64,000 nucleotides of DNA from Budvicia aquatica DSM 5075 = ATCC 35567 (GTDB lineage Bacteria > Pseudomonadota > Gammaproteobacteria > Enterobacterales > Enterobacteriaceae), in contig NZ_KE386585.1 of the NCBI RefSeq assembly GCF_000427805.1, forward strand, positions 1 to 64,000, read 5' to 3'. The translations under genes and the position numbers were made by a program. The stretch's first letter is position 1; each line of letters starts with the position of its first letter. The notes beneath the pieces were generated by a model, which was not told the origin of the DNA, searched no databases, and saw only the letters and a list, made by a program, of their open reading frames with translations. Shown here in pieces: positions 4,984 to 52,478 of this stretch.

Positions 4984-4987
4984 CCTT

Positions 4988-5836: not shown

Positions 5837-5838
5837 AA

Positions 5839-6759
5839 TTACAGTTTCCTCATTAAAAACATCACACACACCATGCCAAAGGCTTCACTACCGAGGAAGT
5901 AATAAAGGATTCCCCGCCCATCAGGATCGTTCATGATATATTCATAATTTATCGGGCTAAGGTACTGTAGGCCGATGAGAAACATAAACGGAATAATGGC
6001 TGTAATTTTCGATGACATCCGCACTTCCGAGGTCATTGCCATTTTTTTACTTTCAATTGCCTTTGCATTAGCAACCGTTTTACCTAACCGCAATAAAACT
6101 TCACGCAGTCGTGCACCACTTTTAAGGTTGATAAGAATAGCAACGGTAAAGAAGTAATATTCTTTAAAAGGCAGACGCTTATAAGAAGCCTTAAGCACCC
6201 GCTCAGGAGCCTCACCAACGTTCAGCCTACGGCTAATCCGACCAAACTCCTCACCTAAAGGTTCAGGCATAATCAGTGCACAGTCAGCCAGCGCTTGAGA
6301 AATACTCGTGCCGGAGGTAAGTGCACCATTTATCACCGATAACGCCTCTGGGAATACCCTGGAGAAAGACTTCTGTAAAATGCGTTTTTCAACCCTGACT
6401 AACACCAGTAAAGAAAGAATAAAGCCTGCACCGATAACACCCAACTCATCCTGGTGAGTAACAAACTTATTAAAAATCAGCGCTCCCATAATAACGCCAA
6501 TAACAATAACAATATTACGGATTAAAACTTTACGCTGGCGGCGATAGAACAGATCAATATAGGTTTGGACAAAACCTCTGGCCCCCCAAACTAAGCGACG
6601 GGCCGTAGACTGGGTATTATTTTGATTCAGCGTTGTTTTCAGCAGGCTATTTGCCTCACCTAAGCTGATATTCTTTTGCATTAGTTGCCAGCGTTTACCA
6701 ACCAGATAAAGCAGCAATACGCCAAAACATAAAATGAGCACATAAAGTCTAATCATCAT
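5839..6759 (-). CDS. tadB: Tad locus 1 inner-membrane platform protein TadB
   Basis: Second T2SSF-domain platform protein, 306 residues. It has two N-terminal membrane regions, the central domain with ALSVINGALTSGTSISQAL and GEEFGRISRRLNVGEAPERVL, and C-terminal membrane helices. Its start codon overlaps the tadA stop by one base, so the two are translationally coupled. The partner TadC follows immediately. A diverged homologue sits in tad locus 2 (59975-60880). Confidence 0.92.
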   Translation of the reverse strand: MMIRLYVLILCFGVLLLYLVGKRWQLMQKNISLGEANSLLKTTLNQNNTQSTARRLVWGARGFVQTYIDLFYRRQRKVLIRNIVIVIGVIMGALIFNKFVTHQDELGVIGAGFILSLLVLVRVEKRILQKSFSRVFPEALSVINGALTSGTSISQALADCALIMPEPLGEEFGRISRRLNVGEAPERVLKASYKRLPFKEYYFFTVAILINLKSGARLREVLLRLGKTVANAKAIESKKMAMTSEVRMSSKITAIIPFMFLIGLQYLSPINYEYIMNDPDGRGILYYFLGSEAFGMVCVMFLMRKL

Positions 6760-8045
6760 TACCTCTCAAAAATAATTTTGAGAAAATGCTCTAAATTCAT
6801 CATCCGAGCCTGAGCATATAAAGCAGAGCGTTGAGATAATCCGTGACAAACAAATTTCCCGACGATCCTGTCCTGACTATCTCTTTCACCATCAACAACA
6901 AAACTAAAGATATCCTGTATAACAATGACGTCCCCTTCAACGCCCATGACTTCAGACACATTCATGATCTTTCTCGAACCATCATTCATACGTGAAACCT
7001 GAATGATCAAATTTACCGCAGAAGCGATGTTGCGACGAATAACTTCAACCGGCAAATTAAGACCGGCCATCATCACCATATTCTCTAAACGAGCAACGGC
7101 ATCCCTTGGAGTATTAGCATGCAGCGTGGTCATTGACCCATCGTGTCCGGTGTTCATTGCCTGTAGCATCTCAAAGGCCTCTTCACCTCGGCACTCACCG
7201 ACAATTATTCGATCCGGGCGCATACGCAGTGCATTCATCACCAAGTTACGCATACTAATTTTGCCGGTATTTTCAATACTGGCCATTTTGGTTTCAAGGC
7301 GAACTACGTGAGGCTGTTGCAGGCGTAATTCGGCGGCATCTTCCAGGGTTAAGATTCGCTCATCGCTGGAAATATGCTGTGATAACGCATTCAACAAGGT
7401 GGTTTTACCCGACCCGGTACCGCCGGAAATCACGATATTTGCCCGGCACTTACCGGCAATAATTAAAAAATTAGCTAACCGTTCGTCAAGCGTTCCGTAG
7501 GCAATCAGATCTTTAAAGGTCTTTGACTCTTTACTGAATTTACGAATAGATATTGAAGTTCCGTCCAGTGAAACCGGATTCATAACGACGTTTAAACGGC
7601 TACCATCCTGTAAACGGGCATCTACCAGCGGTTGTGACTCATCAATTCGTCGCCCTACTCTTGCAACTAAACGCTTAGCAATATCGGTAAGCTGGTCGTT
7701 GTCTAAAAACTTAAGATTGGTTTTTTCCAGCTTTCCTCTGCGCTCAACAAAAATATTATCCGGGCCGTTAACTAAGATATCATTGACCGTCTCGTCTTCA
7801 AGCAGTTCGCGTAAGGGGCCAAAGCCAAGAATCTCATCGGTAATTGCCCCACTTAACACGTCGAGATCGTCTTTCGATATGTAGCGGTTCATTGCCTGAC
7901 TGGTTTTCTGAACCATGACAATAACTTCACGCAGCAGCGCAAAGCGATTACCGACAAGGCTATCAACCCGGTCCAGATCAATCGATTCTAAAACTTGCTG
8001 GCGTATAACCCGTTGAGTTTCATTAAAGCTGTCATCACGTTCCAT
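6759..8045 (-). CDS. tadA: Tad locus 1 assembly ATPase TadA/CpaF
   Basis: Hexameric secretion ATPase of the VirB11/PulE superfamily that powers Flp pilus extension and, in some systems, retraction. Walker A is ISGGTGSGKTTLLNAL. The Asp box (ILTLEDAAELRLQQPHVVRLE), Walker B region (MRPDRIIVGECRGEEAFEML) and His box (GHDGSMTTLHANTPRDA) are all present, so it should be active. At 428 residues it is a standard CpaF-type protein. It lies between tadZ and tadB, and is closely similar to the second TadA at 60877-62166. Confidence 0.96.
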   Translation of the reverse strand: MERDDSFNETQRVIRQQVLESIDLDRVDSLVGNRFALLREVIVMVQKTSQAMNRYISKDDLDVLSGAITDEILGFGPLRELLEDETVNDILVNGPDNIFVERRGKLEKTNLKFLDNDQLTDIAKRLVARVGRRIDESQPLVDARLQDGSRLNVVMNPVSLDGTSISIRKFSKESKTFKDLIAYGTLDERLANFLIIAGKCRANIVISGGTGSGKTTLLNALSQHISSDERILTLEDAAELRLQQPHVVRLETKMASIENTGKISMRNLVMNALRMRPDRIIVGECRGEEAFEMLQAMNTGHDGSMTTLHANTPRDAVARLENMVMMAGLNLPVEVIRRNIASAVNLIIQVSRMNDGSRKIMNVSEVMGVEGDVIVIQDIFSFVVDGERDSQDRIVGKFVCHGLSQRSALYAQARMMNLEHFLKIIFER

Positions 8046-8069: not shown

Positions 8070-9194
8070 TTATTTTTTAAATTTATTCAGCAAGCGTGAA
8101 ATAGAGCTGCCGGTTGATTTATTAGCGGCCATATTTTGTCCTAACACCTGATTAGCCAGAGCCGATACCGCACTATTTTGTTTGGCTAAAAAACGCAGAG
8201 GCTTAGAAGGATCGCCCGGAGGACGCTGATATAAAATATGAGATGAAATATCTCCGCCAAGTAGCGAAGTTAAATCGCCAATGGTTAGTACACCATTAGC
8301 AGTAGGTCGAATTTGGTTTAAACAAACAAACTCACGTTTTACACCGCCGCTAACCGTTCTCAGAAAACGGTTAACGTCTAACGCTGACTTTGCCACACGT
8401 AGTGAAGCTAAATCATGGCCGATGACCAACACGACACAATCTGATGAGCTTAGAACAAACTCAATATCTTCTTTATTGAGATTGAAAATAGGGTAATCAA
8501 ACACTACGAAGTTATAGCGTTCAAGCGCCTTATCATTGAGGTCATCAGTGTATTTGGCATTTCCCGGTTTCACAGACAGGTAAGTCGTTAACTCGCTAAC
8601 GTCCTTTTCCAGTGCTTTATCAGAAATCAGATCGATATCCTGAGATCCACCCGCCCCCTGAACTAAGAGCACCGGAACGCGGTTTTTAGTCGCGATATGC
8701 TGGGCGACATGGTAACTAATAAGAGAATTACCAATCCCGCCTTTACAGCCTAAGATAGATATTTTGATAGCAGAACGGCGATTTTTCATTTCTGCCGATG
8801 AATCTTTAACGTTCTGGACCACGTTAACTAACTGGGATGGATAGTGTAAATAGCTGACGCCTCCGGCAATAAATTGCTGGGATAATGTAATGGAGTCAGT
8901 ATCCCCTACAACCAGACACTTTGCCGAGCTGGGTAATAACGTAGTAATTTTATTTAGCAGCAGAGCGCAATTATCAGACTTCTCAATATCAATAATAATT
9001 GCACTAATATATTCAGGTAGATCAAGGACGTCTGCGGTTAAGAAATTTGCCTTGACCTGAAATAGTGGTTCTATATTTTTTAATACCAGTTGGCTGCAAA
9101 TATCACTCATCCAATCAGGACGCGAAGAGACAATGACAACGTACTCTTGTCCTTCAGATCCCTTTGATTTATCTGCATTTGAAAATAATAACAT
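8070..9194 (-). CDS. tadZ: Tad locus 1 localisation protein TadZ/CpaE
   Basis: ParA/MinD-superfamily protein with an N-terminal receiver-like region (roughly residues 15-130), known in the family to place the Tad machine, often at a pole. The ATPase part starts near residue 145 with ISILGCKGGIGNSLISYHVA. The lysine normally found in the KGGxGK(S/T) P-loop is Asn here, while the signature lysine of KGG remains. Such an atypical P-loop occurs in some TadZ proteins and suggests nucleotide binding without normal hydrolysis. It lies between the rcpB-like gene and tadA. Confidence 0.88.
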   Translation of the reverse strand: MLLFSNADKSKGSEGQEYVVIVSSRPDWMSDICSQLVLKNIEPLFQVKANFLTADVLDLPEYISAIIIDIEKSDNCALLLNKITTLLPSSAKCLVVGDTDSITLSQQFIAGGVSYLHYPSQLVNVVQNVKDSSAEMKNRRSAIKISILGCKGGIGNSLISYHVAQHIATKNRVPVLLVQGAGGSQDIDLISDKALEKDVSELTTYLSVKPGNAKYTDDLNDKALERYNFVVFDYPIFNLNKEDIEFVLSSSDCVVLVIGHDLASLRVAKSALDVNRFLRTVSGGVKREFVCLNQIRPTANGVLTIGDLTSLLGGDISSHILYQRPPGDPSKPLRFLAKQNSAVSALANQVLGQNMAANKSTGSSISRLLNKFKK

Positions 9195-9242: not shown

Positions 9243-9719
9243 TTATTTATTGATCACACTGGCACGTCGTAAGTTATCCAGCGAACAACCCACTTTATCT
9301 CGGTCACGGTATTTATAGTCTTGTCGATGATAATTACAGGTGTGGAATACTGTTGTATCCTTGCCGATAGAGAGATTAACCAAACTACTCCCGCCCCCTA
9401 TTTTTTTCTCCATAACAATTAGTGATGGATCAATGCCAGCGTTAACTAAGCGAGAACGCATGTCATAGGCTAGGTTCTTATTTTCCGCCTTATACCACGT
9501 CAGTAATAAGGTGCTTTCAGCCATCATACTAAAGCGCTGTAGCGTATCGCTAACAAAGCGTTTTTTGTCAGCTTCAGCGTTTTTTAACAGTGAAATATCA
9601 AACTTATCATCAGATGCTAAAGCTGAATCATGCCAGGTCACCGTAGGCGCAGCCGCCAATATGCCTGACATCGCCATAGCACCGAAAAAAATCCAGATCG
9701 AAAAAATAGCTCTTTTCAT
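9243..9719 (-). CDS. Tad locus 1 CpaD/RcpB-like periplasmic protein
   Basis: A 158-residue exported protein (signal sequence ending near ILAAA). It sits where rcpB/cpaD is expected, directly after the secretin gene, whose end it overlaps by four bases. The C-terminal pattern, including NAGIDPSLI and VGCSLDNLRRASV, resembles the end of CpaD proteins, which have a conserved GC...NL motif. CpaD/RcpB proteins are usually lipoproteins that support the secretin; this one has no lipobox cysteine at its N-terminus. The assignment is from position and weak similarity. Confidence 0.6.
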   Translation of the reverse strand: MKRAIFSIWIFFGAMAMSGILAAAPTVTWHDSALASDDKFDISLLKNAEADKKRFVSDTLQRFSMMAESTLLLTWYKAENKNLAYDMRSRLVNAGIDPSLIVMEKKIGGGSSLVNLSIGKDTTVFHTCNYHRQDYKYRDRDKVGCSLDNLRRASVINK

Positions 9720-11095
9720 TGTGCAAAACCGCCTTTACTAAGAAACTCTGCAACCTGTTTTCTCGATTTAGGTTCGCTGACTGAGCTCAGATTAAAAAAG
9801 CGTTCGGCAACGGTACTACGTGAAAAATCAGGTAATACAGCATCTCGGGATGAAATAGGTTTAACTAAATTGACTGTCGCAACGACAACCAGCTCAGTAC
9901 GCTCTCTCTCTGTCGTAGCATGACGGAAAAGTGAACCTAAAATAGGTATTTCACTAATGAATGGTATTCCGGAAAGTGTTTCCCGGTCATTTTCATTTAA
10001 TAGCCCGGCTAAAATGAAGCTATCACCATCAGCCAGTTCAACGGTGGTTCTCGCCTTGCGGCTTTTTAGTTTAGGAATGTTAAAAATTCCCATCTGATAC
10101 TCACCGTCAAGATTACTGATCTCTTCAGACAGTCTGAGCTTTATCTGGTTTTGGTTTTCAACTTTTGCCGCGATGCCTAGCTTTACCCCAAACTCTTTGT
10201 AAGTCACACTAACGCCGTCGCTATTAGTCGTCACAATAGGAATTTCGCCGCCGACCAAAAAGTCCGCCGTTTCACCGGACATTACCGATAAATTAGGCTC
10301 AGCCAATACGCGTGCAATCGAATCATTTTTCATGGCATAAATCATGTTGTTCAAGGTCGTGGCATCAAATTTAAATTTAGTCAGGCTAAACTGGCCGGTA
10401 GGCAAACCGGCATTACTCCAGTCAATGCCAACGTTATCCATAAACTTTTTTGAGACTTCAACCACGCTTAGCTTAACGTTGACCTGATTAGCCATCGGTA
10501 ATTTCATACGGTTAACTAACCCTTCAAACGTCGTTCTTTCCATAAAACCGACGTCTTCATTACTATCTCCGCCTTTTCCGCCACCGGTGGTATATTTAAG
10601 CTCTCTGATTTTTCTCTTTAAACCTAAAGCCTCACCAACCGTCATATAAATTCCATCACGAGCCTCTTCGCTCGGTACGGTACCCGATACCACATATCCC
10701 TTGCCATACTGGCTAATTTCAATCTGGCTTCCCGGATATTCAGCTGCAATATCATCGGCGATATTGCCAAGCAAAGGGTCAACAACAATGTCCATAGATA
10801 TCAATGGGGTTGCATTTTCACCGCCATAAACAACCAGTTGAGAACGTCCATTTTTTCTAGCAAAAACTACCAGTTGTCTATTATCAACCAGCTCATAATC
10901 AGCTATTTCAGGATTAGAGATAAATACCGTACCGATATCCTGTGTCACTTTAAACGTACGAGCCTCCCCTTCTTTAATATAGGTTGACTTAGCGTTAGCC
11001 CAAGCTGAAGTGAAAATAAATATGATTGAAATACAGACCAATGAACCAAATAGTTTTTGTATCTGTAACCAAGAAGCCGTTTTATTGGTATTCAT
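9716..11095 (-). CDS. rcpA: Tad locus 1 outer-membrane secretin RcpA/CpaC
   Basis: Secretin through which the Flp pilus crosses the outer membrane. After a signal sequence (ending near AWA) come the pilus-type N-terminal domain (FKVTQDIGTVFISNPEIADYELVD), a BON-like module (GYVVSGTVPSEEARDGIY) and the C-terminal secretin domain (VLAEPNLSVMSGETADFLVGGEIPI ... LADGDSFILAGLLNEND ... PILGSLFRHATTERERTELVV). Length 459 is normal. It is three bases from the end of rcpC and overlaps the rcpB-like gene. Confidence 0.95.
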   Translation of the reverse strand: MNTNKTASWLQIQKLFGSLVCISIIFIFTSAWANAKSTYIKEGEARTFKVTQDIGTVFISNPEIADYELVDNRQLVVFARKNGRSQLVVYGGENATPLISMDIVVDPLLGNIADDIAAEYPGSQIEISQYGKGYVVSGTVPSEEARDGIYMTVGEALGLKRKIRELKYTTGGGKGGDSNEDVGFMERTTFEGLVNRMKLPMANQVNVKLSVVEVSKKFMDNVGIDWSNAGLPTGQFSLTKFKFDATTLNNMIYAMKNDSIARVLAEPNLSVMSGETADFLVGGEIPIVTTNSDGVSVTYKEFGVKLGIAAKVENQNQIKLRLSEEISNLDGEYQMGIFNIPKLKSRKARTTVELADGDSFILAGLLNENDRETLSGIPFISEIPILGSLFRHATTERERTELVVVATVNLVKPISSRDAVLPDFSRSTVAERFFNLSSVSEPKSRKQVAEFLSKGGFAQ

Positions 11096-11098
11096 AAA

Positions 11099-11968
11099 TT
11101 ATCTTTTTTTACCTCTTAGTTGCCGGATATTTTCAGGCAAAGTTTCATCCGTGGAAATCGCTCGGTTATCCTTAAAGCTGGCTGGAAATAAAATGAAAGT
11201 GCCAAAGGGTTCAATCGAATATATGCTCTTAATTTCTTTATCAGTCAGTTCAACATAGGCCGTCACTCCACCTTCGATAGCTGACTCATCTGCCTCTTTA
11301 GTTTTCGTGGCTTTCTTAACCGTACTGGCTATTTCAGAGATCGGCTTACTCATTGAATTGGCATCGATATAGAGTAGTTTTTTGCTATTTAAAACGGGTA
11401 GCAGCTTGGTTTGATTAAAATCACCCAGCTTTTTTAATTCCAAATCGTAATTTTGCAGAATTCGCGTTTGATAATCGTTTTGAATGAGGTTGTAACGAAA
11501 ATAGATATCCAGGTGTTCGCCGGCTTTTATCGATACCAGTTGGGCAGCCTGACGGCTATCGAGTTGAAAAGAAAATACGCTATTACCCGGTGAGACTAAA
11601 CGGGCCAAATAGGCATTTGAACCAGGAGCAGCAACCTGCCCGGTCAGGATACGACTATTGGCGGTAATATCACTTAGGGCCACATAACCCATTAGCGGCA
11701 TGCTACCAGCATCAGACTCTTCTTTAGTCCACTGTCCGGGCTCAAGATCGAAAGATTGAAGTTTAAAATCACCGGCGGTGATTATCTGCCCCTCTTTGAG
11801 ATTGGTATTAGCTACCGCAAAAACCACCCTGACTTTTTCTACGCCACTATTGGTCGCAATTTCCTGGGGTTGTGCAGGGTTATTATTGGAGTCTGAAAAA
11901 AGAAGTAGCCCAAGCCCGCCAACAATAACTAACAAAATGGCCATTCCCATGATCATTTTCTGATTCAA
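11099..11968 (-). CDS. rcpC: Tad locus 1 pilus assembly protein RcpC/CpaB
   Basis: CpaB/RcpC family, 289 residues: an N-terminal membrane anchor (residues about 5-25), then a SAF-like domain (VVFAVANTNLKEGQIITAGDFKLQSFD...GYVALSDITANSRIL) and an RcpC-type domain with VSIKAGEHLDIYFRYN. In other Tad systems it sits in the periplasm with the secretin and contributes to pilus stability or glycan contact. It lies directly upstream of rcpA. Confidence 0.9.
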   Translation of the reverse strand: MNQKMIMGMAILLVIVGGLGLLLFSDSNNNPAQPQEIATNSGVEKVRVVFAVANTNLKEGQIITAGDFKLQSFDLEPGQWTKEESDAGSMPLMGYVALSDITANSRILTGQVAAPGSNAYLARLVSPGNSVFSFQLDSRQAAQLVSIKAGEHLDIYFRYNLIQNDYQTRILQNYDLELKKLGDFNQTKLLPVLNSKKLLYIDANSMSKPISEIASTVKKATKTKEADESAIEGGVTAYVELTDKEIKSIYSIEPFGTFILFPASFKDNRAISTDETLPENIRQLRGKKR

Positions 11969-11995: not shown

Positions 11996-12442
11996 TTAGT
12001 AATTAACTTGTGCTAATATTCCTATAAGAACAAATAGATAGCTTCCTGATATTGCAACACCATAAGGCAGCCCTCGAGCCACATGTTTTTTATTAAAGCG
12101 CCTCAAAAAAAATTCAATTAATGCTAAAAACACACCAATGATAGACATTAGTAATAAATAACTTACAACATCACCTCGAGGAATTGTTAATGCGAGAACG
12201 GATAACAGTTTGATATCTCCTGCACCAACAATGTTAATGGCTACCAGAATAAAGCCAATAGCAAAAATAATCAGCGCAGCTAAAAAATTAGGCGACTGAC
12301 TGGTAATCAATAGAGTCGCAATAACTAACAAAAGAACAAATGCCACATCAATATTTTTTATCAACCGATAACGAATATCTGTGTAACAGATTCTTATCAA
12401 GATAAAAAACCAAGGAAGCATCAGTCCAATTAAAACCCACAC
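11996..12442 (-). CDS. tadV: Tad locus 1 prepilin peptidase TadV/CpaA
   Basis: Short type IV prepilin peptidase (A24 family), 148 residues, with about five membrane helices. Both catalytic aspartates of the family are visible: one in CYTDIRYR near residue 21 and one in the GxGD motif (VGAGDIKLLS). It cleaves the leader of the Flp pilin encoded just upstream and probably of TadE/TadF. A strong hairpin (12589-12617) separates it from flp. Confidence 0.92.
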   Translation of the reverse strand: MWVLIGLMLPWFFILIRICYTDIRYRLIKNIDVAFVLLLVIATLLITSQSPNFLAALIIFAIGFILVAINIVGAGDIKLLSVLALTIPRGDVVSYLLLMSIIGVFLALIEFFLRRFNKKHVARGLPYGVAISGSYLFVLIGILAQVNY

Positions 12443-12635: not shown

Positions 12636-12899
12636 TTACGCAGGGAAAGCTGAGATAGATTTATCTAAGCTATCTTTAATTTTACCAAAGGCTTCAATAA
12701 TCTTACCTAAGAAGTTATCACCTGAAGTACCATCACCCAGAACGATATACAGCATTGCAGAAACAGCAACGGCAATCATTGAATATTCAATTGCGGTAAC
12801 GCCGTTCTCATTAGCCATCAGCTCTTTAAATTTTTGTTGAGTTTTAACAGCAACAAATACAGAACCGCCTAATACTGCGTTAGAAATTTTACCAAACAT
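12636..12899 (-). CDS. flp: Flp major pilin of tad locus 1
   Basis: An 87-residue Flp/Fap-type prepilin. The processing site is G33 followed by VTAIEY, giving the family Glu at +5 and Tyr at +6, then a hydrophobic helix (SMIAVAVSAMLYIVLG). The leader of 33 residues is somewhat long for the family. AAGGGA lies before the ATG. It is the first gene of the minus-strand operon and the only Flp pilin gene in the window; tad locus 2 must use this one or one beyond the right edge. Confidence 0.94.
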   Translation of the reverse strand: MFGKISNAVLGGSVFVAVKTQQKFKELMANENGVTAIEYSMIAVAVSAMLYIVLGDGTSGDNFLGKIIEAFGKIKDSLDKSISAFPA

Positions 12900-13366: not shown

Positions 13367-14716
13367 CTATCTATTCAAAGCCAGCTGCTGATTAATTCGA
13401 CCAATCTCATCAAGGCTAAGTGATGCAAACGGGTAAATGACCCGATTCTTAAACTCAGGATAATCAGTACAATTACAGCGATCTGAAATCAGCGTTATCT
13501 TATTTAGAATCTCACTGTTTTTCAGCAACCCGACATCCTGCATATTAAATGAAAAATAGGTCGACCGTGGTTCACCCCACACGTCAGGATCGTCAAATGC
13601 CCGATTAACCCCTTCTATGGCCAACTGATACTTTTCCCTTCTTTTTTGTGCAAGATTGGCAATATCCCTGATAATTCTATTTGAACCCAGATAGTCTGAA
13701 ATCAGTTTAGAAAACATCACTGAAGATTCATTATTAACGATGTTTTCAATATCCTGTACCTTGTCCAGTAAAGCCTCCGGAAAGACCCCAATACCAACAC
13801 TGGTTTCACTACCAAGAATAAGCCCCAGAGAAGTCACATAAATCAGGCGATCATTCTGGCCATTAAGGTAAATCGGACTGGTGATTTTTTTGCCTAAATT
13901 CATGATAGCCCAGGAGTCATCCTCAATCAGCCAAGCGTCGTTTTTTAAACACCACTCGGTCAAATAAGCTCGCCGTTCCTGATTTAAGATTCCACCGGTA
14001 GGAAACTGGTAAGATGGCGTCACATAAATACAATCAACCGGTTCATTAGGCAGTTGGTCAACCATCAGGCCGTTGCTGTCTACAGGAACAAGCTTGATAT
14101 CGAAGTTGAACGAATTAAATATTTCATAGATCAATTGATTACAAGGAAACTCTAGCACTACGCAAGGATTTGGATTGTGATTTTTAATCGCTAAAGCGAT
14201 TGAAAATACCAGCGATGTCGCACTTTTGGATACGACGGTATTGCTGAATTTCATTTTCATACCCCGCAGAGAGAGTACGGTATTGATGATATTCTCTTTC
14301 AAATCAAAATGTTCAGCGTCAGCCGTTTTATTCAAATGCAGGTCAAGAAAGTATTTCTTCATAAAGGCCCCGGGAATATTAGTATCATCTACATATTCCA
14401 ACAGTCCTTTACCATCATTGGGTCTTTGATTGTTATCAATAAAGAGTACATCCTTCGCCTTTTCGTGTAGCTCACGATCAAAAATAGCGGCAACAAAAAA
14501 ACCGCTTCTCTCTTTACTTTGAACAACCCCAAGACTGGCTAGTTTTTCATAAGCACCGATAACAGAACTGCGTGATATTGAGAAGTGATCGCTCATAGAC
14601 CTTATTGAGGGAAGGTAGTCACCAAATTTCAATTCGCCCTGATTGATTAAATCAATAATATTGGTAACCAGTTGGTTTTGTATATTTCCTTTTCTATCAA
14701 TCCGTAATAACAACAT
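13367..14716 (-). CDS. MocR-type GntR regulator with degenerate aminotransferase domain
   Basis: 449 residues with the MocR/PdxR layout: an N-terminal GntR winged helix (residues about 8-75, SIRSMSDHFSISRSSVIGAYEKLASLGVV), a linker, and a class-I aminotransferase-like domain (YVTPSYQFPTGGIL, WLIEDDSWA). In active MocR proteins a lysine in a 'GTFSKTL' segment binds pyridoxal phosphate. The matching segment here is VTSLGLIL, with Leu299 in the lysine's place, so covalent PLP binding should be lost. It stands between the divergent flp operon and tadEFG genes and is the natural candidate for their regulator. It has its own terminator (13297-13332). Confidence 0.85.
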   Translation of the reverse strand: MLLLRIDRKGNIQNQLVTNIIDLINQGELKFGDYLPSIRSMSDHFSISRSSVIGAYEKLASLGVVQSKERSGFFVAAIFDRELHEKAKDVLFIDNNQRPNDGKGLLEYVDDTNIPGAFMKKYFLDLHLNKTADAEHFDLKENIINTVLSLRGMKMKFSNTVVSKSATSLVFSIALAIKNHNPNPCVVLEFPCNQLIYEIFNSFNFDIKLVPVDSNGLMVDQLPNEPVDCIYVTPSYQFPTGGILNQERRAYLTEWCLKNDAWLIEDDSWAIMNLGKKITSPIYLNGQNDRLIYVTSLGLILGSETSVGIGVFPEALLDKVQDIENIVNNESSVMFSKLISDYLGSNRIIRDIANLAQKRREKYQLAIEGVNRAFDDPDVWGEPRSTYFSFNMQDVGLLKNSEILNKITLISDRCNCTDYPEFKNRVIYPFASLSLDEIGRINQQLALNR

Positions 14717-15732: not shown

Positions 15733-16251
15733 ATGAGTACCAACACAGGACGTTTCAATCGGTTAATAAAGCTGGGTTCTTCTTTCAATAATGAATCCGG
15801 GGCGACAACCCTTGAGTTTACTTTTTTCATTACCTCTTTTCTTATCATCCTGTTCTTCTTTATCGAACTGTGCCGCGTCATTTTTATTTCAGCGGCGCTG
15901 GATCTCGCCGTTGCGCAGTCAGGCAGAGCAGCCTCCTTTGACAGCAATGCCGCAGTGAATTACACCGCGGTATTTAAAAAGAGCTTGGCTGAAAATAGTC
16001 GACTCTGGCCATTTCTTGGCAACGATGATGATATTGAGATAAAACCCGTCAAGTATTGTCTGGACGTTCAACAACTGATTGATGACACCTGCAGCTCAAC
16101 GCAGTCACCTTCTGGCTCTGTATTAGCTATTTATAGCATTCAATATGCCTACAGCCCCGTTTTGGCTAAATTACTCCTGATGAATAACTTCAATAACAGC
16201 ATGTTAAAGCGTGAAGTTATTTATGTTCAGCAATACGAATTAGTTCAATGA
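15733..16251 (+). CDS. tadE: Tad locus 1 minor pilin TadE
   Basis: 172-residue TadE-like pseudopilin. The N-terminal motif SGATTLEFTFFITSF with a following long hydrophobic helix (IILFFFIELCRVIFISAALD) matches the TadE family, in which the E five residues after the cleaved Gly is conserved. The remainder is a small periplasmic domain with a Cys pair (YCLDVQQLIDDTC). AGGGA lies eight bases before the ATG. It is first in a plus-strand operon and overlaps tadF by ATGA. Its homologue in locus 2 is 54917-55399. Confidence 0.85.
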   Translation: MSTNTGRFNRLIKLGSSFNNESGATTLEFTFFITSFLIILFFFIELCRVIFISAALDLAVAQSGRAASFDSNAAVNYTAVFKKSLAENSRLWPFLGNDDDIEIKPVKYCLDVQQLIDDTCSSTQSPSGSVLAIYSIQYAYSPVLAKLLLMNNFNNSMLKREVIYVQQYELVQ

Positions 16252-16871
16252 GGATGGACACGGACATGTTTAAGAAGGGAATCAACACCTTAAAAAGCGA
16301 CAGTGGTGCCGTGACTCTTGAAGCCGCCGGCGTTTTTGTCTGCATGATAATGCTGATCTTTTTCGTTTTTGACCTAAGTAAACTGATCTTGAATAAAGGA
16401 AAAGTTGAACGAGTCGCCCACTCTATAGCCTCTATTGTTCGGGAAAGAACATATCTGTACAACAGTCAAAATCTGCTTACCCGCCAAGACGTTGAGGATA
16501 TGGCCGATGTAGCTAAAAGGCTATTGGGGGATACCTTTCCGGGAAAAAATGTCGCCATTCAAATTGAAACGCTCTATTTCGATAACGCCAATAAAAACAG
16601 CGCCACTATCGATGACACTATGAGCGTGTCCTATTCCACATTATTTAGCTCCGTTAGCTCATGCAAAGCTGCCGGTAATACGCTTAAAAATACACCTGAG
16701 CTGAAAAACATGACCTTTTGGAGTGAACGTTCATCCTGGGGCTGGGTGCCTGTTTATCGGGTCACTGTCTGCGTTGAACGAGATGACTTCAGCGGCTTTT
16801 CTCGTTTTGTAGGGCAAATGATTAATATGCCGGCAAGCATAACTATCTCCAACGTGGTCATGCCTCGCTAA
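16248..16871 (+). CDS. tadF: Tad locus 1 minor pilin TadF-like
   Basis: 207-residue pilin-like protein. The motif SGAVTLEAAGVFVCMIMLIFFVFDLSKLIL gives a prepilin-type cleavage site and helix, and a periplasmic domain with two Cys follows. Position, size and the conserved VRER segment (SIASIVRERTYLY) match the TadF-like protein of locus 2 (54313-54942). Its ATG overlaps the tadE stop (ATGA), so translation is coupled; an ATG six bases later is an alternative start. Confidence 0.82.
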   Translation: MRMDTDMFKKGINTLKSDSGAVTLEAAGVFVCMIMLIFFVFDLSKLILNKGKVERVAHSIASIVRERTYLYNSQNLLTRQDVEDMADVAKRLLGDTFPGKNVAIQIETLYFDNANKNSATIDDTMSVSYSTLFSSVSSCKAAGNTLKNTPELKNMTFWSERSSWGWVPVYRVTVCVERDDFSGFSRFVGQMINMPASITISNVVMPR

Positions 16872-16900
16872 GGGCTCCGTTTTACCTAACTTATAACAAG

Positions 16901-16928
16901 TTGGCCGGCGAGCGATCTCACCGGCCAA
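16901..16928 (+). repeat. Hairpin between tadF and the first tadG-like gene
   Basis: The inverted repeat TTGGCCGG/CCGGCCAA with a 12-base loop lies 30 bp after the tadF stop. There is no T tract. It may stabilise or process the tadEF mRNA. Confidence 0.45.
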
Positions 16929-16983
16929 AGAATACTCCGCAAACACGGGATTATGCGGTCACCGGCAATAAGGAAGCAGAATT

Positions 16984-18783
16984 ATGTCCGACATCAGAAT
17001 AATAAAGCTCTTCAGAGCATTTATTAAAAATGACAGCGGAGCATTCGCTATTATGTATGCCCTGCTACTTCCGGTTTTGGCCCTACTACTGGCGCTGACT
17101 ATCGATGGTAGTAATCTATTATCTAAACAGGCTCGGCTATCAGACGTAGTGACTGAAAGTTTGGTTAGCAATAGTACCCACAGCTACAGCGATGAAACCC
17201 GGAGTAACCAAACGTTAGGGTCCAGTCTGAAATATCACTTCCCTCAGGATCAGGTAACTAAAAAAACGGTCAAAATTGATATACAGCGTTCGTCCGGCAA
17301 CACGGTGACTTATAAACAAATTGCAGCCGCTATTATTAAAGTCCGAACCTTTCTTCCGCTGACTAAATCTGGCTTTAAGGATTTTGAAGAGGTGGCCTAT
17401 GTCAGTCCTAAATACAACCAAACCTCGCATAATCTGGGCATTAAAATGACGCATCAAACGTCATTGGATATGACCGGCGTCGGTATGGATGAAGACGGTG
17501 GCATTTGGGTGTGGGGTTGGCGTAGAACCGGCCAGCAGGGAAATGGGACCGTTTCTGTAGGTGATAACGTAGCCCCTACTCGGGTACAAATTCCTCCGGG
17601 TCAGCCGAATAATCAAGTTAAAAATATTAAATATGCCGGCGGTTACGCCAGTATATTAGCCCTCGATGAAAACGGTGACGTTTGGGGATGGGGCCAAGAT
17701 CTCTACGGTGAACTCGGCTCTGCCGTTTGCAATGGCAGCAGGGTGACCTATAACCCAACGCCGTGTAAAGCCTTTAGCGGCGTTGCTGATATCACCATGG
17801 GCGAGTATGCGACGCTTATGCTCAGGAAAGACGGTACCCTATGGTATATGGGAGAATGTCGGTATGCCCAGTGCGGCAATGGCAGCAACCCTACCTATGT
17901 CCTGAGACCAACCGAAGTGAGTCTGACTTCCAGAAATAAGAATGATGGCCAAATAGAAAAGGAAACTGTTGTTCTGATCGGCAGTGCCTACGAAGGTAGC
18001 CTGGCGGTTACCAAAAATAAAGACGGGGTGTACAGCGTATGGGGATGGGGAGATAACGAAGGCTGTGGCCTCGGTACCGCCCAATCTCATGCGGGAGGCG
18101 GCTCACTTATTCCGATGGAAACGGCTAAAAACGGTACCCAATCGCAGTGCCATTACTTTTGGCAAGATTATAGAGGTAGAACCAAAACCCCTTACAAGAT
18201 CCCACGCCTTGAGAAGTATGCCAAGGATATCGTCTATATTGCCGGCGGCAACGGTTGGTCTGAAGCGTTACTCAAAGATGGTACGGTTATCGGTTGGGGA
18301 ACCCATGCCCACTTAGGTCAGGGCTGGACCTATGGTGATGCCCCCCATGAACCCGCAACCAACCTTGATGTCGATGAGCCTATTGTCATCATGAAAAATG
18401 TCAGAGAGCTGCAGGCACGCTATATAGGCAGCGCTGCTCTCACTAATGACAATAAGCTGTATACATGGGGGGGTATCGAACTCTATCAAGTTTATGGTCG
18501 ATATGTAACCCACCGGGCTGATAACGTTAAATCTATGTCTACCGGTAAAGAATTTATGTTTTATACCGATATGAATGATGAAAGCTACGGCGTGGGCTAT
18601 TTCATCCACGATAAATTTTTACTCGGTTCTGAAACAGCCTACCACAGCCACCCGCTCAACGGTTCAAGGCCCGGCAATCCGGGCAATATCTACACCATAA
18701 ACTGGCCGGGAATCAAAATGGATTTCGGTAAGTTTAATCTCAATACCGGCGGTGGAGATCCTAAGCCAACGCCAGAAAAATAA
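16984..18783 (+). CDS. TadG-like protein with RCC1-type beta-propeller, copy 1
   Basis: 599 residues. The N-terminus (SGAFAIMYALLLPVLALLLALTIDGSNLL) is the standard TadG/TadE-like membrane anchor. The C-terminal two thirds is not the usual vWA domain but a series of RCC1-type repeats. Characteristic WGWG blades occur near residues 175 (IWVWGWRRTGQQGNG), 233 (VWGWGQDLYGELG), 287, 352 (VWGWGDNEGCGLG), 436 and 493 (YTWGGIELYQVYG), suggesting a six- or seven-bladed propeller. RCC1-like domains usually bind proteins or other partners, so this may be an adhesive tip or anchor protein of the pilus. A paralogue follows after a terminator. Confidence 0.85.
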   Translation: MSDIRIIKLFRAFIKNDSGAFAIMYALLLPVLALLLALTIDGSNLLSKQARLSDVVTESLVSNSTHSYSDETRSNQTLGSSLKYHFPQDQVTKKTVKIDIQRSSGNTVTYKQIAAAIIKVRTFLPLTKSGFKDFEEVAYVSPKYNQTSHNLGIKMTHQTSLDMTGVGMDEDGGIWVWGWRRTGQQGNGTVSVGDNVAPTRVQIPPGQPNNQVKNIKYAGGYASILALDENGDVWGWGQDLYGELGSAVCNGSRVTYNPTPCKAFSGVADITMGEYATLMLRKDGTLWYMGECRYAQCGNGSNPTYVLRPTEVSLTSRNKNDGQIEKETVVLIGSAYEGSLAVTKNKDGVYSVWGWGDNEGCGLGTAQSHAGGGSLIPMETAKNGTQSQCHYFWQDYRGRTKTPYKIPRLEKYAKDIVYIAGGNGWSEALLKDGTVIGWGTHAHLGQGWTYGDAPHEPATNLDVDEPIVIMKNVRELQARYIGSAALTNDNKLYTWGGIELYQVYGRYVTHRADNVKSMSTGKEFMFYTDMNDESYGVGYFIHDKFLLGSETAYHSHPLNGSRPGNPGNIYTINWPGIKMDFGKFNLNTGGGDPKPTPEK

Positions 18784-18790
18784 TCCTTTC

Positions 18791-18827
18791 AAACACTCTG
18801 GCAAATCTTTTGTCAGAGTGTTTTTTT
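18791..18827 (+). terminator. Intrinsic terminator between the two RCC1-TadG genes
   Basis: The stem AAACACTCTG/CAGAGTGTTT is followed by a T tract ending at 18827. It lies eight bases after the first gene's stop and should end or reduce transcription before the second copy, which could allow separate control of the two. Confidence 0.85.
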
Positions 18828-18852
18828 AACATAAATAATAAGGAATATTATT

Positions 18853-20610
18853 GTGTTCCTCTGCAGTATAATTAAAAAAATCATAGCATTAACCCGAAGT
18901 TCCACAGGGTCATTTTCCATTATGTATGCCCTGTTATTACCGCTACTGGTGGCTTTTCTCTCCTTATCCATCGACAGCAGCAATCTGTTGGCTAAACAGG
19001 CTCGCCTGGCTGATATTGTCACCGAAAGTCTGGTCAGTACCGGCACACATAGCTACACCAGTGAATACCAAAGTAAAAAGGTACTGGATGCCAGTCTTGC
19101 CCACTCGTTTCCCGATGATGAAACCCTTATCAGCGCGATTAAAATCGAAATTACCCAACAGAACTCAGGTAAAACCCACTATCAGCAGTTGGCTGCCGCT
19201 CAAATTGATACTCAGGTTTTTCTGCCGTTAACTAAACTGGGCTTTAGTGACAAACAAAAAATCAGTTATTTAAGTCCTGAATATAGCCAGACCTCGTCCG
19301 GCAAAGGCATTCTGATGAATCACCAAACAACGTTGGATATGACCGGTATCGGTATGGACCACGATGGCGGGATCTGGATGTGGGGATTTCGTGGCACCGG
19401 GCAACAGGGTAACGGTGTTACCAATGTTACCGACAGCCAGCCACCTCAAAAAGTGATGATTCCCCCTAACGATCCGCTCAATCAGGTTAAAAATATTAAG
19501 TATGCCGGCGGTTATGCCAATCTGATTACGCTGGACAGCAACGGCGACGCATGGGCGTGGGGGCAGGATTTGTACGGCGAAGCCGGTTCCGCAGTATGTA
19601 AAGGCCAGAACCGTAACCCCAACCCAACGCCATGTAAGGTATTAAGTAACGTTGCAGATATCTCTAGCGGTGAATATGTCACTACGTTGTTGAAAAAAGA
19701 CGGAACCTTGTGGTTTATGGGCCAATGCCTGTATAGCCAATGCGGCGATCCGACCAATCGCCGCTCTCGTTGGGTACCTGAGCAAATCAACCTTGATGGC
19801 GAAAGAGTAACTCTTATTGGCAGCGCCTATGAAGGGACTTTTGCCATCACCGTCGATAATAAAGGCAAGTATTCCGTTTGGGGGTTTGGTGATAATGAAG
19901 GATGCGGCTTAGGTTTTACGCAAACTAACGTTTCTGGCCAGACCGATATCAACGGTAAGTTTTCACAATGTCGCTACCCTACTCAAGACTATAACGGGCT
20001 ATCACGCTCTCCGCGTCGTATTACCGGGTTAGATAAGTACGCAGATCAAATCGTGTATATCGGTGGGGGTGACGGCTGGGGTGAAGCCCTGCTGGAAGAT
20101 GGCACGGTAATTGGCTGGGGAGCCCACGTCCATCTGGGCCAGGGTTATACCTACCCGCCGGCCATTACAACGCCTTATACCAATCTTGAGGTTGAAGAGC
20201 CTATTGTTATCATGCATAACGTTCGCACCCTTCATGCCCGATACGTTGGCAGTGCTGCTATTACCAATGATAACAAGCTCTATACCTGGGGTGGCCTGGA
20301 GATTTATCAAATCTATGGTCGAAATGTGACTCATCGGGCTGACAACGTCTATTCAATTTCAACCGGAAAAGAGTTTATGTTTTACACCGACTTAGATTTT
20401 AACAGCTACGGCGTCGGTTATCATACCCGAGATAAATTCCTGCTGGGAAATCGCCAAAATTATCTTAATCATCCGCTAAATGGCCTTAACCCCGGCCAGC
20501 CGGGCAATGAAAACGCGATCAACTGGCCGGGAATTGAGATGAATTTTGCCCAGTTTGATATCGATATTGGTAATGGAAAAGATCCTAAACCGATGCCGGT
20601 TCTTCATTAA
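18853..20610 (+). CDS. TadG-like protein with RCC1-type beta-propeller, copy 2
   Basis: 585-residue paralogue of 16984-18783, collinear over its whole length and similar by eye at roughly two thirds of positions. It has the same TadG-type anchor (SGSFSIMYALLLPLLVAFLSLSIDSSNLL) and the same chain of WGxG repeats (IWMWGFRGTGQQGNG, AWAWGQDLYGEAG, VWGFGDNEGCGLG, YTWGGLEIYQIYG). The start is a GTG with AAGGA eight bases upstream. It lies after a terminator and so may have its own promoter in a 25-bp gap, or be read through. It is the last gene of tad locus 1 on this side. Confidence 0.83.
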   Translation: MFLCSIIKKIIALTRSSTGSFSIMYALLLPLLVAFLSLSIDSSNLLAKQARLADIVTESLVSTGTHSYTSEYQSKKVLDASLAHSFPDDETLISAIKIEITQQNSGKTHYQQLAAAQIDTQVFLPLTKLGFSDKQKISYLSPEYSQTSSGKGILMNHQTTLDMTGIGMDHDGGIWMWGFRGTGQQGNGVTNVTDSQPPQKVMIPPNDPLNQVKNIKYAGGYANLITLDSNGDAWAWGQDLYGEAGSAVCKGQNRNPNPTPCKVLSNVADISSGEYVTTLLKKDGTLWFMGQCLYSQCGDPTNRRSRWVPEQINLDGERVTLIGSAYEGTFAITVDNKGKYSVWGFGDNEGCGLGFTQTNVSGQTDINGKFSQCRYPTQDYNGLSRSPRRITGLDKYADQIVYIGGGDGWGEALLEDGTVIGWGAHVHLGQGYTYPPAITTPYTNLEVEEPIVIMHNVRTLHARYVGSAAITNDNKLYTWGGLEIYQIYGRNVTHRADNVYSISTGKEFMFYTDLDFNSYGVGYHTRDKFLLGNRQNYLNHPLNGLNPGQPGNENAINWPGIEMNFAQFDIDIGNGKDPKPMPVLH

Positions 20611-20668
20611 GTCAACAACCGGGATCGGTCTTGATAGGGTTTACACCTTAACCAGCCAGCAACTATCT

Positions 20669-20703
20669 TGGTCCGCTTAAGGATTATCGCCACCAGCGGA
20701 CCA
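20669..20703. repeat. Inverted repeat between RCC1-TadG copy 2 and mdlB
   Basis: TGGTCCGCT and AGCGGACCA are separated by 17 bases in the gap between two convergent genes. No T tract follows on either strand, so termination is possible but not certain. It marks one border of the inserted tad locus. Confidence 0.4.
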
Positions 20704-20748: not shown

Positions 20749-22530
20749 CTACGACTGGTACTCCAACTCTGTAGCAGCCAGCTGTAACTGATGCATCTGA
20801 TAATATCGGCCTTTGGCTGCCAGCAGCTGTTGATGAGTTCCCCTCTCAACAATCTGGCCACGGTTAAGCACTACGATCTGGTCAGCATCGACAATTGTCG
20901 ACAGTCGGTGAGCGATCACCACTAAGGTAGTTTTATGACGAATTGCGCTGAGTGCGCGATGGATTGCCTGCTCAGTACCCGAATCGATATTGGCAGTTGC
21001 CTCATCCAAAATCAGAATTTCAGGCGTTTGTACCAATACTCTGGCTAACGCCAGTAACTGTTTCTGACCAACGGATAGGTTATTTCCTTGCTCACCCAGA
21101 ATACTCTCCATTCCCTTTGGCATTAAATTAACCAGCGTATCCAACTGAGAAATTCTCAAGGCTTCAGTCACCCGTTGATCGCTGATATCCCGCCCTAAGG
21201 CAACGTTGGCATAAACGGTATCAGCCAGAACCACCGGATCCTGCTGGACCATAGCAATACCGGAACGTAGAGTTTCGTGACTGAGGGAATTTAATGGCCG
21301 GTCATCTAAATAAATCTCACCGCGACTAAGGGGATAATATCCCATCAATAAATTCGCCAAGGTACTTTTTCCGCTACCGGTATGACCAACCAATGCCACA
21401 AAGCTGCGGGAAGGAATCGACAAATTGATATCCTGCAGAACCGGCTTTGAACGGTTATATGAAAAGCTGACGTCACAAATATCAATTTTACCGGATGACA
21501 GGGGTCGAGTATCTGCGCCGTATTCTTGTTGGACACCGTCCATCAGTTCAAAAATACGCTCACCGGCAACCACCGCCTGTTGCATCATCGACTGTTGCGA
21601 TGTCAGTTCGATTAACGGCTCATTCAGCCTGGAGAGATAATTAATAAAGGCATACAGCACGCCCACGCCAATTGAACCTTGCGGACTAAAGCCAAATAAC
21701 ACCAACAGCCCGCTCAGAATAAGAGCAGAGATCAAACTCAATAACGGCCGGAGTAGCAGACTTTCCAGACGCAGCGTTTTTATCCGCATATGGTAGTGAG
21801 CCAGGTTTGTCGCACTCAGGCGCTGACCAAACCGAGCCTGTTGGCGGAACTGCTGTAACACCGACATACCGCTGATTGCTTCATTAAATCCGTTATTGAT
21901 ATCGGCCAGTAAACTACGCACCTGGCGAATAATCGGCGTGCTGATACGCTGATAGATGGTCATCAAAACGGCAACAACCGGGAAAATAGTAATTGCGATC
22001 AATGCCATACGCCAGTTAAGGCTAAACATGGCTATCAGCATGGCGCTTACCAGTGCAGCACTGCGTAATACGGTGGCTACCACCGTAACGTACAGATCTT
22101 TAATCACCTCGGTATCATTGGTTACTTTTGATATTAGTTGCCCTACCGGCTGAGTATCAAAGACTGAGATCGGCTGTTTAAGCGCGGCATCCATAACGTC
22201 GCTACGAATAGTCTGTACAACGCCAACCGCGGCACTGTTAAACAGTAATGCCTGGTTATAACGTAAGGTTGCTGCCAGTATCTGAAGCAATAAAAAGACG
22301 ACCCCCAGCCCGATAACTTTCTCCATCGGCATGGTATTTTTAGCCACCATGGTATCAATAAAATAACTGATAATAACCGGGCCACAGACTTCGGCTGCTG
22401 CCGCTAGCCATAGTAATAACGCCGCAATGGTTAACGGCTTGCGGTAGGGTAATCCATAGGTCAGCAGTCGTTTTAACGTTGGCCACAGCTGCTGGAATTT
22501 TTGGGGTGTTTTAGGATTCATGTCACTCAT
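20749..22530 (-). CDS. mdlB: ABC transporter half MdlB (SmdB)
   Basis: 593-residue multidrug-type ABC exporter half: an N-terminal membrane domain of six helices, then a nucleotide-binding domain with Walker A ([14 protein letters not shown]), signature ([17 protein letters not shown]) and Walker B ([12 protein letters not shown]). It overlaps the end of mdlA by eight bases and surely forms a heterodimer with it. In E. coli glnK follows mdlB directly; here tad locus 1 lies between them. Confidence 0.96.
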
Positions 22531-24262
22531 CTAAAGCCGCTTCCAGTTGCTGATAACGATACATATTGCGATACCATCCCGACTGCTCTGACAACTGCGC
22601 ATGTGAGCCTCGCTGGGCTATGCGCCCGTCCTGTAATACCAGAATTTCGTTGGCATTCAGCAGGCCGGAAAGCCGGTGAGCACTGATGATTAGCGTACGC
22701 CCTTCTCCCCAGCTGCGAAGATTCTGTAAAATTTGATATTCGGTCTGCCCGTCAACGGCCGACAGAGCATCATCCAGAACTAAAATTTCACAGTCTAGTA
22801 ATAGCGCTCTGGCAATTGAAATCCGCTGTTTTTGCCCGCCGGATAACATAACGCCCCGCTCTCCGACCTCGGTTTGATATCCCTGAGCCAAATTAAGAAT
22901 ATCTTCATGAACGCAGGCCAAAGCCGCCACCCGCTCAATATCATCCTGAGTCGCGTCCGGTTTACCCAGTGAGATGTTCTCAGCAATGCTGGCAGAAAAC
23001 AGGAATGGCGTCTGGCTAACCACTGACAAACGGGCACGCCATTCATCCAGTTTTAGCTGTCGAATGGGCAGTGAATGGAAACAAATATCACCGTCAGTCA
23101 CATCAAACTGACGCTGAACCAAGGCCAGTAAGGTACTTTTACCCGATCCCGTCGGGCCACACAGCCCCAAGGTTTGCCCCGGAGCCAACCTGGCCTGAAT
23201 ATTTTCTAAGGTCGGGGACTCTGCCTGCGGATAAGTAAACTGACCAATATTAAATTCCAGCACTCCGCGCCCGGCAGGAACAGAGAGATCGCCGTCGGCC
23301 ACTTCCGGTTGTTCCGTTAATAAACTCGAAATCCGGCTATAGGCCGCGCTACCGCGTTCGACGATATTAAACATCCACGCCAGTGCCAGCATCGGCCAGA
23401 TCATTAAGCCTAAATACATTACAAAGCTGGTCAGTTGGCCTAGCGTCAGTTGGTTATTGACTACCATCCAGCTTCCGCCACCAACGGCCAGCATATTGGC
23501 ACAGGCAATGGTCAGATAGATGGTCGGATCAAAGCGGGCGTCCACGCGAGCCACTAACATATTCTTGCTGCCGGCATCTTTAGCGACTTCGGCAAACAGG
23601 CGAGACTGATAGCGCTCCAGCCCAAAAGCCTTGATCATTCGAATACTGGTTAAGCTTTCCTGAGTGCGATCGTTTAGTGAGGAAAATGCCGCCTGGGCCG
23701 TTTTAAAGCGGTTATGCAGCTGTTCGCCAAATCGCTTAATGAAGATGGCCATAATCGGCATGGGTAACAGTGAAAACAGCGTGAGCTCCCAGCTAATCTG
23801 AATGCTCATAATGATAAACACCGCACATCCCATCACCAACGAATCGACCAGCGTCAGAACGCCTTCACCGGCGGCAAACACCACCCGGTCAACGTCATTG
23901 GTTGCTCTGGCAATCAGATCGCCGGTACGGTGACGTAAATAGAAATTGGGGTGCTGTCGGCTCAATTGATGGTAGAAATTTTCTCTCAGCTTTACCGCTA
24001 ACATGTAGGACGCGCCAAACAGTAAGATTCGCCATACATAGCGCAGCAGGTAAATAGTCAGCGCGGTGGCAATAATCAGGCCGACCCACATTAACAATGT
24101 TCGCCCGCTCATCTGCTCGCGGGTGATGCCATCAACAATAGTTCCGACCAATTTAGGCGGAAGCAGCTGCAACATAGCGATCGCAACCAGCAGTGTTACT
24201 GCACCTAAATAGCGTTTCCACTGTAATTTAAAGAACCAGCGCAGTTGAGAAAACAATTTCAC
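22523..24262 (-). CDS. mdlA: ABC transporter half MdlA (SmdA)
   Basis: 579-residue partner of MdlB with the same exporter layout: membrane domain, then Walker A ([14 protein letters not shown]), signature ([17 protein letters not shown]) and Walker B ([13 protein letters not shown]). In MdlA the residue after the Walker B Asp is Asp rather than the usual catalytic Glu, while MdlB keeps Glu. This points to a heterodimer with one full catalytic site. It follows decR with a gap of 124 bp. The substrate is unknown. Confidence 0.96.
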
Positions 24263-52310: not shown

Positions 52311-52478
52311 ATCTATACTCTCCTTCGATAAATTCCTAGGCGTTTCAACATTGTCTTTAATAAAAAATCGACTTAAAAATTGTAATATCATTTTAGGAAC
52401 TGCTCGCAGCCTCCCATATACTAAAATAAATATTAAAAAGAGGCGCAGCAAATAAAAATATATTATTACACCACAATT

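Follow-up and report, generated by a model that had tools for sequence, protein, structure and literature searches.

A tandem pair of genes for TadG-like proteins with an RCC1-type propeller in a tad locus of Budvicia aquatica

The tandem genes

The first 64,000 nucleotides of contig NZ_KE386585.1 of Budvicia aquatica DSM 5075 (the window in the following) contain a tad locus, locus 1, in which two neighbouring genes each encode a TadG-type anchor followed by an RCC1-type beta-propeller. Both genes are uninterrupted open reading frames (ORFs) and their products are 60% identical, in agreement with a first-pass annotation made from the sequence, which had described a tandem pair separated by a terminator.

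16984-18783, plus strand: TadG-RCC1 fusion, copy 1 (599 amino acids; anchor and pilin-like part at about 1-145, propeller at about 155-585)
18853-20610, plus strand: TadG-RCC1 fusion, copy 2 (585 amino acids, GTG start)
18791-18823, plus strand: terminator-like hairpin separating the two genes (stem of 15 bp, followed by a U-rich stretch)

The intergenic hairpin folds at -19.1 kcal/mol (z -7.65 against shuffled sequences), which bears out the terminator of the annotation; it is absent from the list produced by a consensus terminator scan. The hairpin should keep the expression of the two copies apart. A terminator-like hairpin of 12 pairs is also listed on the minus strand of the gap between tadF and the first tadG copy (16901-16928), and on the plus strand this gap folds no better than dinucleotide shuffles (z -1.29).

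The N-terminal anchor

The Pfam TadE model matches copies 1 and 2 at E-values of 2.4e-4 and 0.3, both under the curated cut-off, so Pfam by itself does not show TadG. Residues 1-152 of the four fusions were made into a profile, which matched a second profile, of 13 N-termini of vWA-type TadG proteins, at E 1.5e-18 over residues 5-137, whereas control comparisons with TadF (E 1.3e-6) and TadE (E 1.4e-4) covered only residues 6-55 and 3-35, respectively. The likeness to TadG thus extends beyond the common helix, and, as judged by these profiles, the anchor of both proteins is TadG-type and distinct from TadE and TadF. The TadG membrane-anchor start of the annotation is therefore upheld, the N-terminus being found to match a TadG profile. 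In pairwise alignment, copy 1 shares 29% identity over 91 positions with the vWA TadG of a second tad locus of the window.

The propeller

In both proteins a propeller of the RCC1 family replaces the vWA domain, as the annotation had proposed. The Pfam RCC1 model is matched at 2e-12 (47.9 bits) in copy 1 and 4.4e-11 (43.6 bits) in copy 2, over the cut-off of 21.7 bits, and neither copy matches VWA or the PilY1 propeller domain (PF05567) in Pfam at E-values up to 1. With the whole-domain model WD40_RLD the copies score 134.8 and 120.8 bits, under its cut-off of 150, which is passed by two tested relatives encoded as separate genes (155.6 and 158.8 bits). An NCBIfam scan of both copies gave nothing meaningful. 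Across the whole genome, Pfam RCC1 was matched at two places only, both inside copy 1, the repeats of copy 2 being visible in the protein scan only. The closest sequence of solved structure is yeast Prp20/RCC1 (3.3e-16). A regular expression for the blade motif, which covers four of the seven blades counted by eye, matched four times in each protein (means of 0.07 and 0.05 and a maximum of two in 1000 shuffles).

Structure prediction, run on copy 1, gave an RCC1-type propeller with modest confidence. The AlphaFold2 models, built from an alignment of three rows, reached a predicted local distance difference test (pLDDT) of 55.4 and a predicted template modelling score (pTM) of 0.69 for residues 150-599, and 46.1 and 0.57 for the full length. 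When the model of residues 150-599 was compared with the PDB, RCC1-type domains, some of them presumed to be such, occupied ranks 1-35 of the 50 entries in the list (Z from 24.7 down to 17.8), with bacterial lectins and other propellers below; the best match was HERC2 (Z 24.7, root-mean-square deviation 3.4, 306 aligned). Foldseek with the full-length model placed UVR8, HERC2 and RCC1 at the top (best E 6.2e-19), and the named rows of a Foldseek search of viral proteins were mostly RCC1 proteins. Strand order and motifs were read by eye as seven blades, in a model whose pLDDT is only 55.4. Cysteines 249 and 261 are invariant among 11 aligned rows.

Divergence of the two copies

Over their whole length the copies show a non-synonymous difference of 0.271, with 0.336 for residues 1-150 and 0.249 for the remainder, the propeller; the synonymous difference is about 0.77 and saturated. 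By structural class, assigned from the model, identity is 85/116 in strands, 12/14 and 19/30 in two sets of turns, and 115/200 in inter-blade loops. Loops that diverge more than strands are predicted by the constraint of the fold alone, so the divergence looks like fold constraint and is neutral as to whether the copies bind different ligands. The comparison of rates on the propeller faces, as proposed in the annotation, gave no adaptive signal, and adaptive divergence of the faces was rejected as not shown, synonymous sites being saturated.

Gene content of locus 1

16248-16871, plus strand: tadF (Pfam TadF, 3.9e-26)
15733-16251, plus strand: tadE (Pfam TadE, 4.3e-5, over the cut-off)
13367-14716, minus strand: GntR/MocR-like regulator (G200, a genome of the same family, has a 45%-identical gene in this position)
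12636-12899, minus strand: Flp major pilin (Pfam Flp_Fap, 3.7e-9)
11996-12442, minus strand: tadV prepilin peptidase (Pfam Peptidase_A24)
11099-11968, minus strand: rcpC/cpaB (TIGR03177, 9.3e-11, under its cut-off)
9716-11095, minus strand: rcpA secretin (Pfam Secretin, 1.7e-38)
9243-9719, minus strand: unnamed gene of 158 amino acids (no Pfam match)
8070-9194, minus strand: tadZ-like gene (no Pfam match, weak NCBIfam matches only)
6759-8045, minus strand: tadA ATPase (T2SSE, 2.7e-65; TadA-family model, 1.8e-101, under its cut-off)
5839-6759, minus strand: tadB (T2SSF, 5.6e-14)
4988-5869, minus strand: tadC (T2SSF, 9.7e-14)
4036-5028, minus strand: tadD-like TPR protein (TPR models)

Locus 1 appears to be complete: it encodes Flp, TadV, secretin, ATPase, TadE and TadF, and its machinery genes are intact ORFs. 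The plus strand carries tadE, tadF and then both fusion genes, and the remaining tad genes and the regulator lie on the minus strand; the TadG gene alone is doubled, beside one tadE and one tadF. The gene at 8070-9194 we take to be tadZ-like, by its position. Relatives of the gene of 158 amino acids occupy the equivalent position in G200 and in the third tad locus of B. aquatica. The regulator stands between the divergent halves of the locus, as in G200, and is a candidate switch of locus 1. The locus is flanked by genes that are presumably glnK-amtB (515-2178) and an mdlB-mdlA-like ABC transporter pair (20749-24262), and an ORF of 138 amino acids with a transposase DDE domain (PF13751) is located beside amtB at the window edge (6-422).

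Other tad loci of the genome

Three tad loci were found in the genome by TadF matches. Locus 2, which extends from 51573 to the window end, supplied a comparator that lies outside the finding itself:

52479-54293, minus strand: vWA-type TadG of locus 2 (VWA_2, 2.4e-5, just under the cut-off)

The N-terminus of this protein aligns with that of the fusion. The TadG encoded by the third locus (contig C29) has 439 amino acids and can be aligned with the vWA TadG; no propeller gene was recognised within the surrounding 20 kb. Locus 2 also encodes a small Ras-like GTPase (56874-57413), a protein with a weak Roadblock/LC7 match under the cut-off (56320-56871) and a CZB zinc-binding domain protein (51573-52451), a set reminiscent of an MglA/MglB-like switch. 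Related genes occur in tad loci of G004, G179, G360, G399 and G023.

Relatives in the same family

A search with copy 1 at E<=1e-10 matched 8 of 392 genomes of the family. Three of these carry the fusion (B. aquatica, G200 and G003), four carry a separate RCC1 gene, and one (G399) matches through the TadG anchor only. Thus, the combination of a TadG N-terminus with RCC1, which the annotation had suggested to look for, was seen in 3/392 family genomes, and it was found in none of the loci from the class and phylum draws described below. In G200 a single fusion gene occupies the corresponding position, and its tad locus shares gene order and regulator with locus 1.

In the other four genomes (G004, G179, G360 and, in the part of its locus viewed, G378), an RCC1 gene of 421-436 amino acids adjoins a vWA-type tadG, and a signal peptide was read by eye in its product. 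The view that the propeller belongs with Tad loci gains new support, because these relatives carry a separate propeller gene beside vWA tadG. A gene for a transglycosylase (SLT) lies 3' of the separate RCC1 gene in the two loci tested (L033, 13299-13961; L036, 14037-14738), and a similar gene starts in L035 and L037.

Relatives across the order

In 394 genomes of the order, searched with the propeller alignment at E<=1e-30 and also for TadF, the propeller was found in 19: B. aquatica, G200, G039, 14 genomes of a second family (f27) and two of another (f12). TadF was found in 69, including 17 of f27, and 17 of the 19 propeller-positive genomes are also TadF-positive. The gene order tadE-tadF-tadG-RCC1-tadV is present in all 14 propeller-matched f27 genomes. 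Among the 17 TadF-positive f27 genomes, the slot between tadG and tadV holds an intact gene in 14, two of which have extra copies (three in a row in G488, a second one beyond tadV in G597), and is broken or empty in three (L088, L089 and L090): G560 retains a remnant of 169 amino acids, G658 two pieces of about 93 amino acids, and in G649 no ORF was recognised. Stops counted in several second-family matches fall outside the ORFs by position, and the ORFs are uninterrupted. The RCC1-positive genomes G510 and G534 have no TadF match and encode a protein of 500 amino acids, lipoprotein-like by eye, which was dropped as unrelated. An ORF of 1393 amino acids in G733 (L073, 2073-6254) has an RCC1-like domain at its C-terminus (WD40_RLD, 4.8e-61), and no tad gene was found in the 10 kb examined around it.

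Frischella is a member of the Orbaceae, gut symbionts of bees. In this bacterium, a mutant of the major Flp pilin colonised bees worst among the deletion mutants tested, according to the results excerpted from PMC10104596.

This distribution bears on the possibility that the propeller acts at the pilus base or in the periplasm, in pilus priming or in the control of extension and retraction, with ligand binding secondary. Such a role would agree with the fact that 14 second-family genomes encode the separate form amid core tad genes, with the better conservation of the propeller than of the anchor between the two copies, and with PilY1, whose propeller affects pilus formation and retraction in the passages on it in PMC13190605. 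Nevertheless, 52 of the 69 TadF-positive order genomes are without the propeller, which therefore is not a general assembly factor, and variable copy number and 3/17 broken or empty slots fit an interaction module better. We regard a priming or retraction role as unlikely.

The broken slots, together with an orphan fusion in G003 without TadF, the two further tad loci of B. aquatica and the strong hairpin ahead of copy 2, might also point to a fading relic, in which the fusion stays in the membrane, copy 2 is silent behind the terminator and the other tad loci do the work. But both fusion ORFs are intact, as are those of the locus 1 machinery, and the non-synonymous difference is far below the synonymous one (0.27 versus 0.77), so that a relic seems highly improbable.

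Origin of the fusion and of the pair

In a propeller tree of 30 rows, two of them with long branches, the four fusions fall into a single clade (100/99), with the two window copies as sisters (100/98). The four partner proteins of the same family form another clade (100/100), joined to 17 tad-linked f27 genes (97/98). The tandem copies of G488 arose in that genome's own lineage, while both copies of G597 group with the copy of G550. The window pair was duplicated after the split from G200 (100/98). On this tree, a single fusion event is probable, with a later duplication giving rise to the window pair. An rcpA tree of 24 rows, which carries long-branch warnings, groups locus 1 and G200 with loci of vWA-type TadG without a propeller. 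A simple deletion within a single ancestral locus finds no support as the origin of the fusion, the rcpA tree separating fusion loci from partner loci.

The annotation had offered two uses for the pair, alternative tips or a heteromer. An obligate heteromer, in which both copies jointly build one tip, would account for two tandem genes that are 60% identical and both apparently maintained. However, a single copy is present in the corresponding locus of G200, the tad locus contains just one intact copy in 12 of 14 second-family genomes, and the pair was duplicated recently compared with the age of the fusion; a two-copy complex is thus not needed, the heteromer proposal is weakened, and in its obligate form we rejected it as scarcely credible. 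Alternative tips are plausible, in agreement with the copies that are specific to the lineages of G488 (three) and G597 (two).

Searches beyond the order

In blastn of 15733-20700 against plasmids no match was found. With tblastn, copy 1 matched 37 plasmid records, none over 80% of the query, the 20 listed having 22-28% identity; a second-family relative matched 44 plasmid records, the best at about 23-30%. The separate-gene relative of G004 had no match in E. coli genomes. A scan of genome contigs gave three loci, two with ordinary RCC1 proteins (24-26% identity) and one with a match of 33 residues. A scan of viral contigs gave one locus (L046), with an RCC1 protein of 529 amino acids, near which no tad gene was recognised by eye. 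In draws from the class and the phylum, 13 other genomes of 350 and eight of 388 (one common to both) gave partial, generic RCC1 matches only. At the 31 loci of these draws no ORF matched the TadG-anchor profile at E<=0.1, within about 1.5 kb on each side, a span that could miss an anchor located well upstream within a long ORF. Seven control loci gave eight TadG ORFs; seven of these are in the profile or copies, and one (L091) is independent.

Among open-licence papers of PubMed Central (PMC), a scope that makes absence weak, nothing was found that joins TadG with RCC1, and a search for RCC1 with tight adherence gave nothing related.

Comparison with known pilus tips

That TadG tips are modular is already known. 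The C-terminal domain of TadG is described as modular and the Kil tips as interchangeable in the passages on tips of PMC12075869, and the models outlined there and in parts of PMC12607857 have TadE/F/G-like proteins capping Tad pili, with the C-terminal domain of TadG outward. The latter source also reports, in sections on the pilus, a TadG orthologue detected in pilus preparations and CpaL as a predicted tip minor pilin with vWA. The window proteins resemble vWA-type TadG/CpaL in the anchor and pilin-like part, aligned over 5-137, and in their place after tadE-tadF, but carry an RCC1-type propeller and have no VWA match at E<=1. What is surprising here is the TadG-RCC1 architecture and the linked separate form.

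The Kil tips of Myxococcus (KilL/M/N) are likewise built from TadE/F/G-like sets in which the KilN/TadG domain varies, and they exist in several alternatives; but there, as the tip passages of PMC12075869 have it, whole tip sets are multiplied, against the TadG gene alone in locus 1. The main text of that paper mentions neither RCC1 nor a propeller. The alternative TadG-like tips of Myxococcus serve killing (the same passages of PMC12075869), and the window tip might by analogy act in contact-dependent antagonism or in prey or competitor recognition, possibly with a toxic partner. No toxin, immunity or type III secretion-like gene was noticed among the ORFs beside the pair, where no dedicated search was made. 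The transglycosylase after the partner gene (two loci tested) is ambiguous, as such enzymes also serve envelope passage. We consider antagonism quite improbable.

The closest published counterpart that we saw is PilX2 of Saccharibacteria TM7x, which the excerpted description in PMC12206443 presents as a minor pilin whose C-terminal part is a seven-bladed propeller made of RCC1 repeats. PilX2 belongs to a type IVa system of another phylum, and it is likened here by description. PilY1/PilC, a tip protein of type IVa pili, also carries a seven-bladed propeller, in some members together with vWA (tip passages of PMC13190605). Its propeller is, however, PF05567, and the window proteins bear their own pilin anchor; since PF05567 is unmatched in them, the likeness is one of design, not kinship. 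Loci with vWA-TadG and a separate propeller resemble PilY1 in two chains, as far as that description goes, while the fusion keeps the propeller only. Surface RCC1 proteins of honeybee-gut bifidobacteria are likewise secreted propellers in tandem copies, but they are described as attached to peptidoglycan via LPxTG, and no pilus link is described in the excerpts from PMC3447821 and PMC4449606.

Proposed function

We consider it fairly likely that the window proteins are minor pilins of the TadG type in which an RCC1 propeller has taken the place of the usual display domain, shown at the pilus tip and binding a ligand in the manner of PilY1. The N-terminal helix and the small pilin-like part (about 1-145) would take part, together with TadE and TadF, in capping the Flp/Tad pilus. 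The apparently seven-bladed propeller (about 155-585) would be shown at the pilus end in place of vWA, where it would most likely bind a surface ligand, as PilY1 does, and so might serve adhesion. In the related loci, the separate and apparently exported propeller may dock on the vWA-TadG tip as a partner. The two window copies would most likely be tip variants, with expression divided by the terminator. Being separate in some loci and fused in others, the propeller behaves as an exchangeable part of Tad loci.

Several observations weigh against this interpretation. The confidence of the propeller models is low to moderate, and the signal peptides of the separate proteins were judged by eye only. 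The fusion of G003 occurs without a TadF match in the genome, and no tad gene was found on its 52 kb contig, of which all but 99 bases were covered; 2 of the 19 propeller-positive order genomes are without TadF, and in G039 two of three RCC1 genes have no tad gene in the part of 20 kb viewed. Conversely, 52 of the 69 TadF-positive order genomes lack a propeller match at E<=1e-30. The rcpA tree keeps the fusion loci apart from the partner loci, and the propeller faces give no adaptive signal, the non-synonymous difference being lower in the propeller and synonymous sites saturated.

A broader and more tentative proposal, possible though somewhat doubtful, is that the RCC1 propeller is an unrecognised exchangeable module of Tad tips, a split-or-fused counterpart of PilY1 from an unrelated propeller family. 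One branch would use vWA TadG with a secreted propeller, the other a single chain in which vWA, the proposed mechanosensor, was lost, and copies may have been multiplied to vary binding.

The finding touches on how Tad pili choose their binding targets and on whether the vWA of TadG/CpaL is needed for sensing. A vWA-less TadG beside vWA TadG in one genome, together with the separate-gene relatives, offers a ready natural comparison, which predicts a contact between TadG and the propeller and would separate binding from vWA-based sensing. After PilX2 of Saccharibacteria, this would be a second pilus lineage that joins an RCC1 propeller to a pilin.

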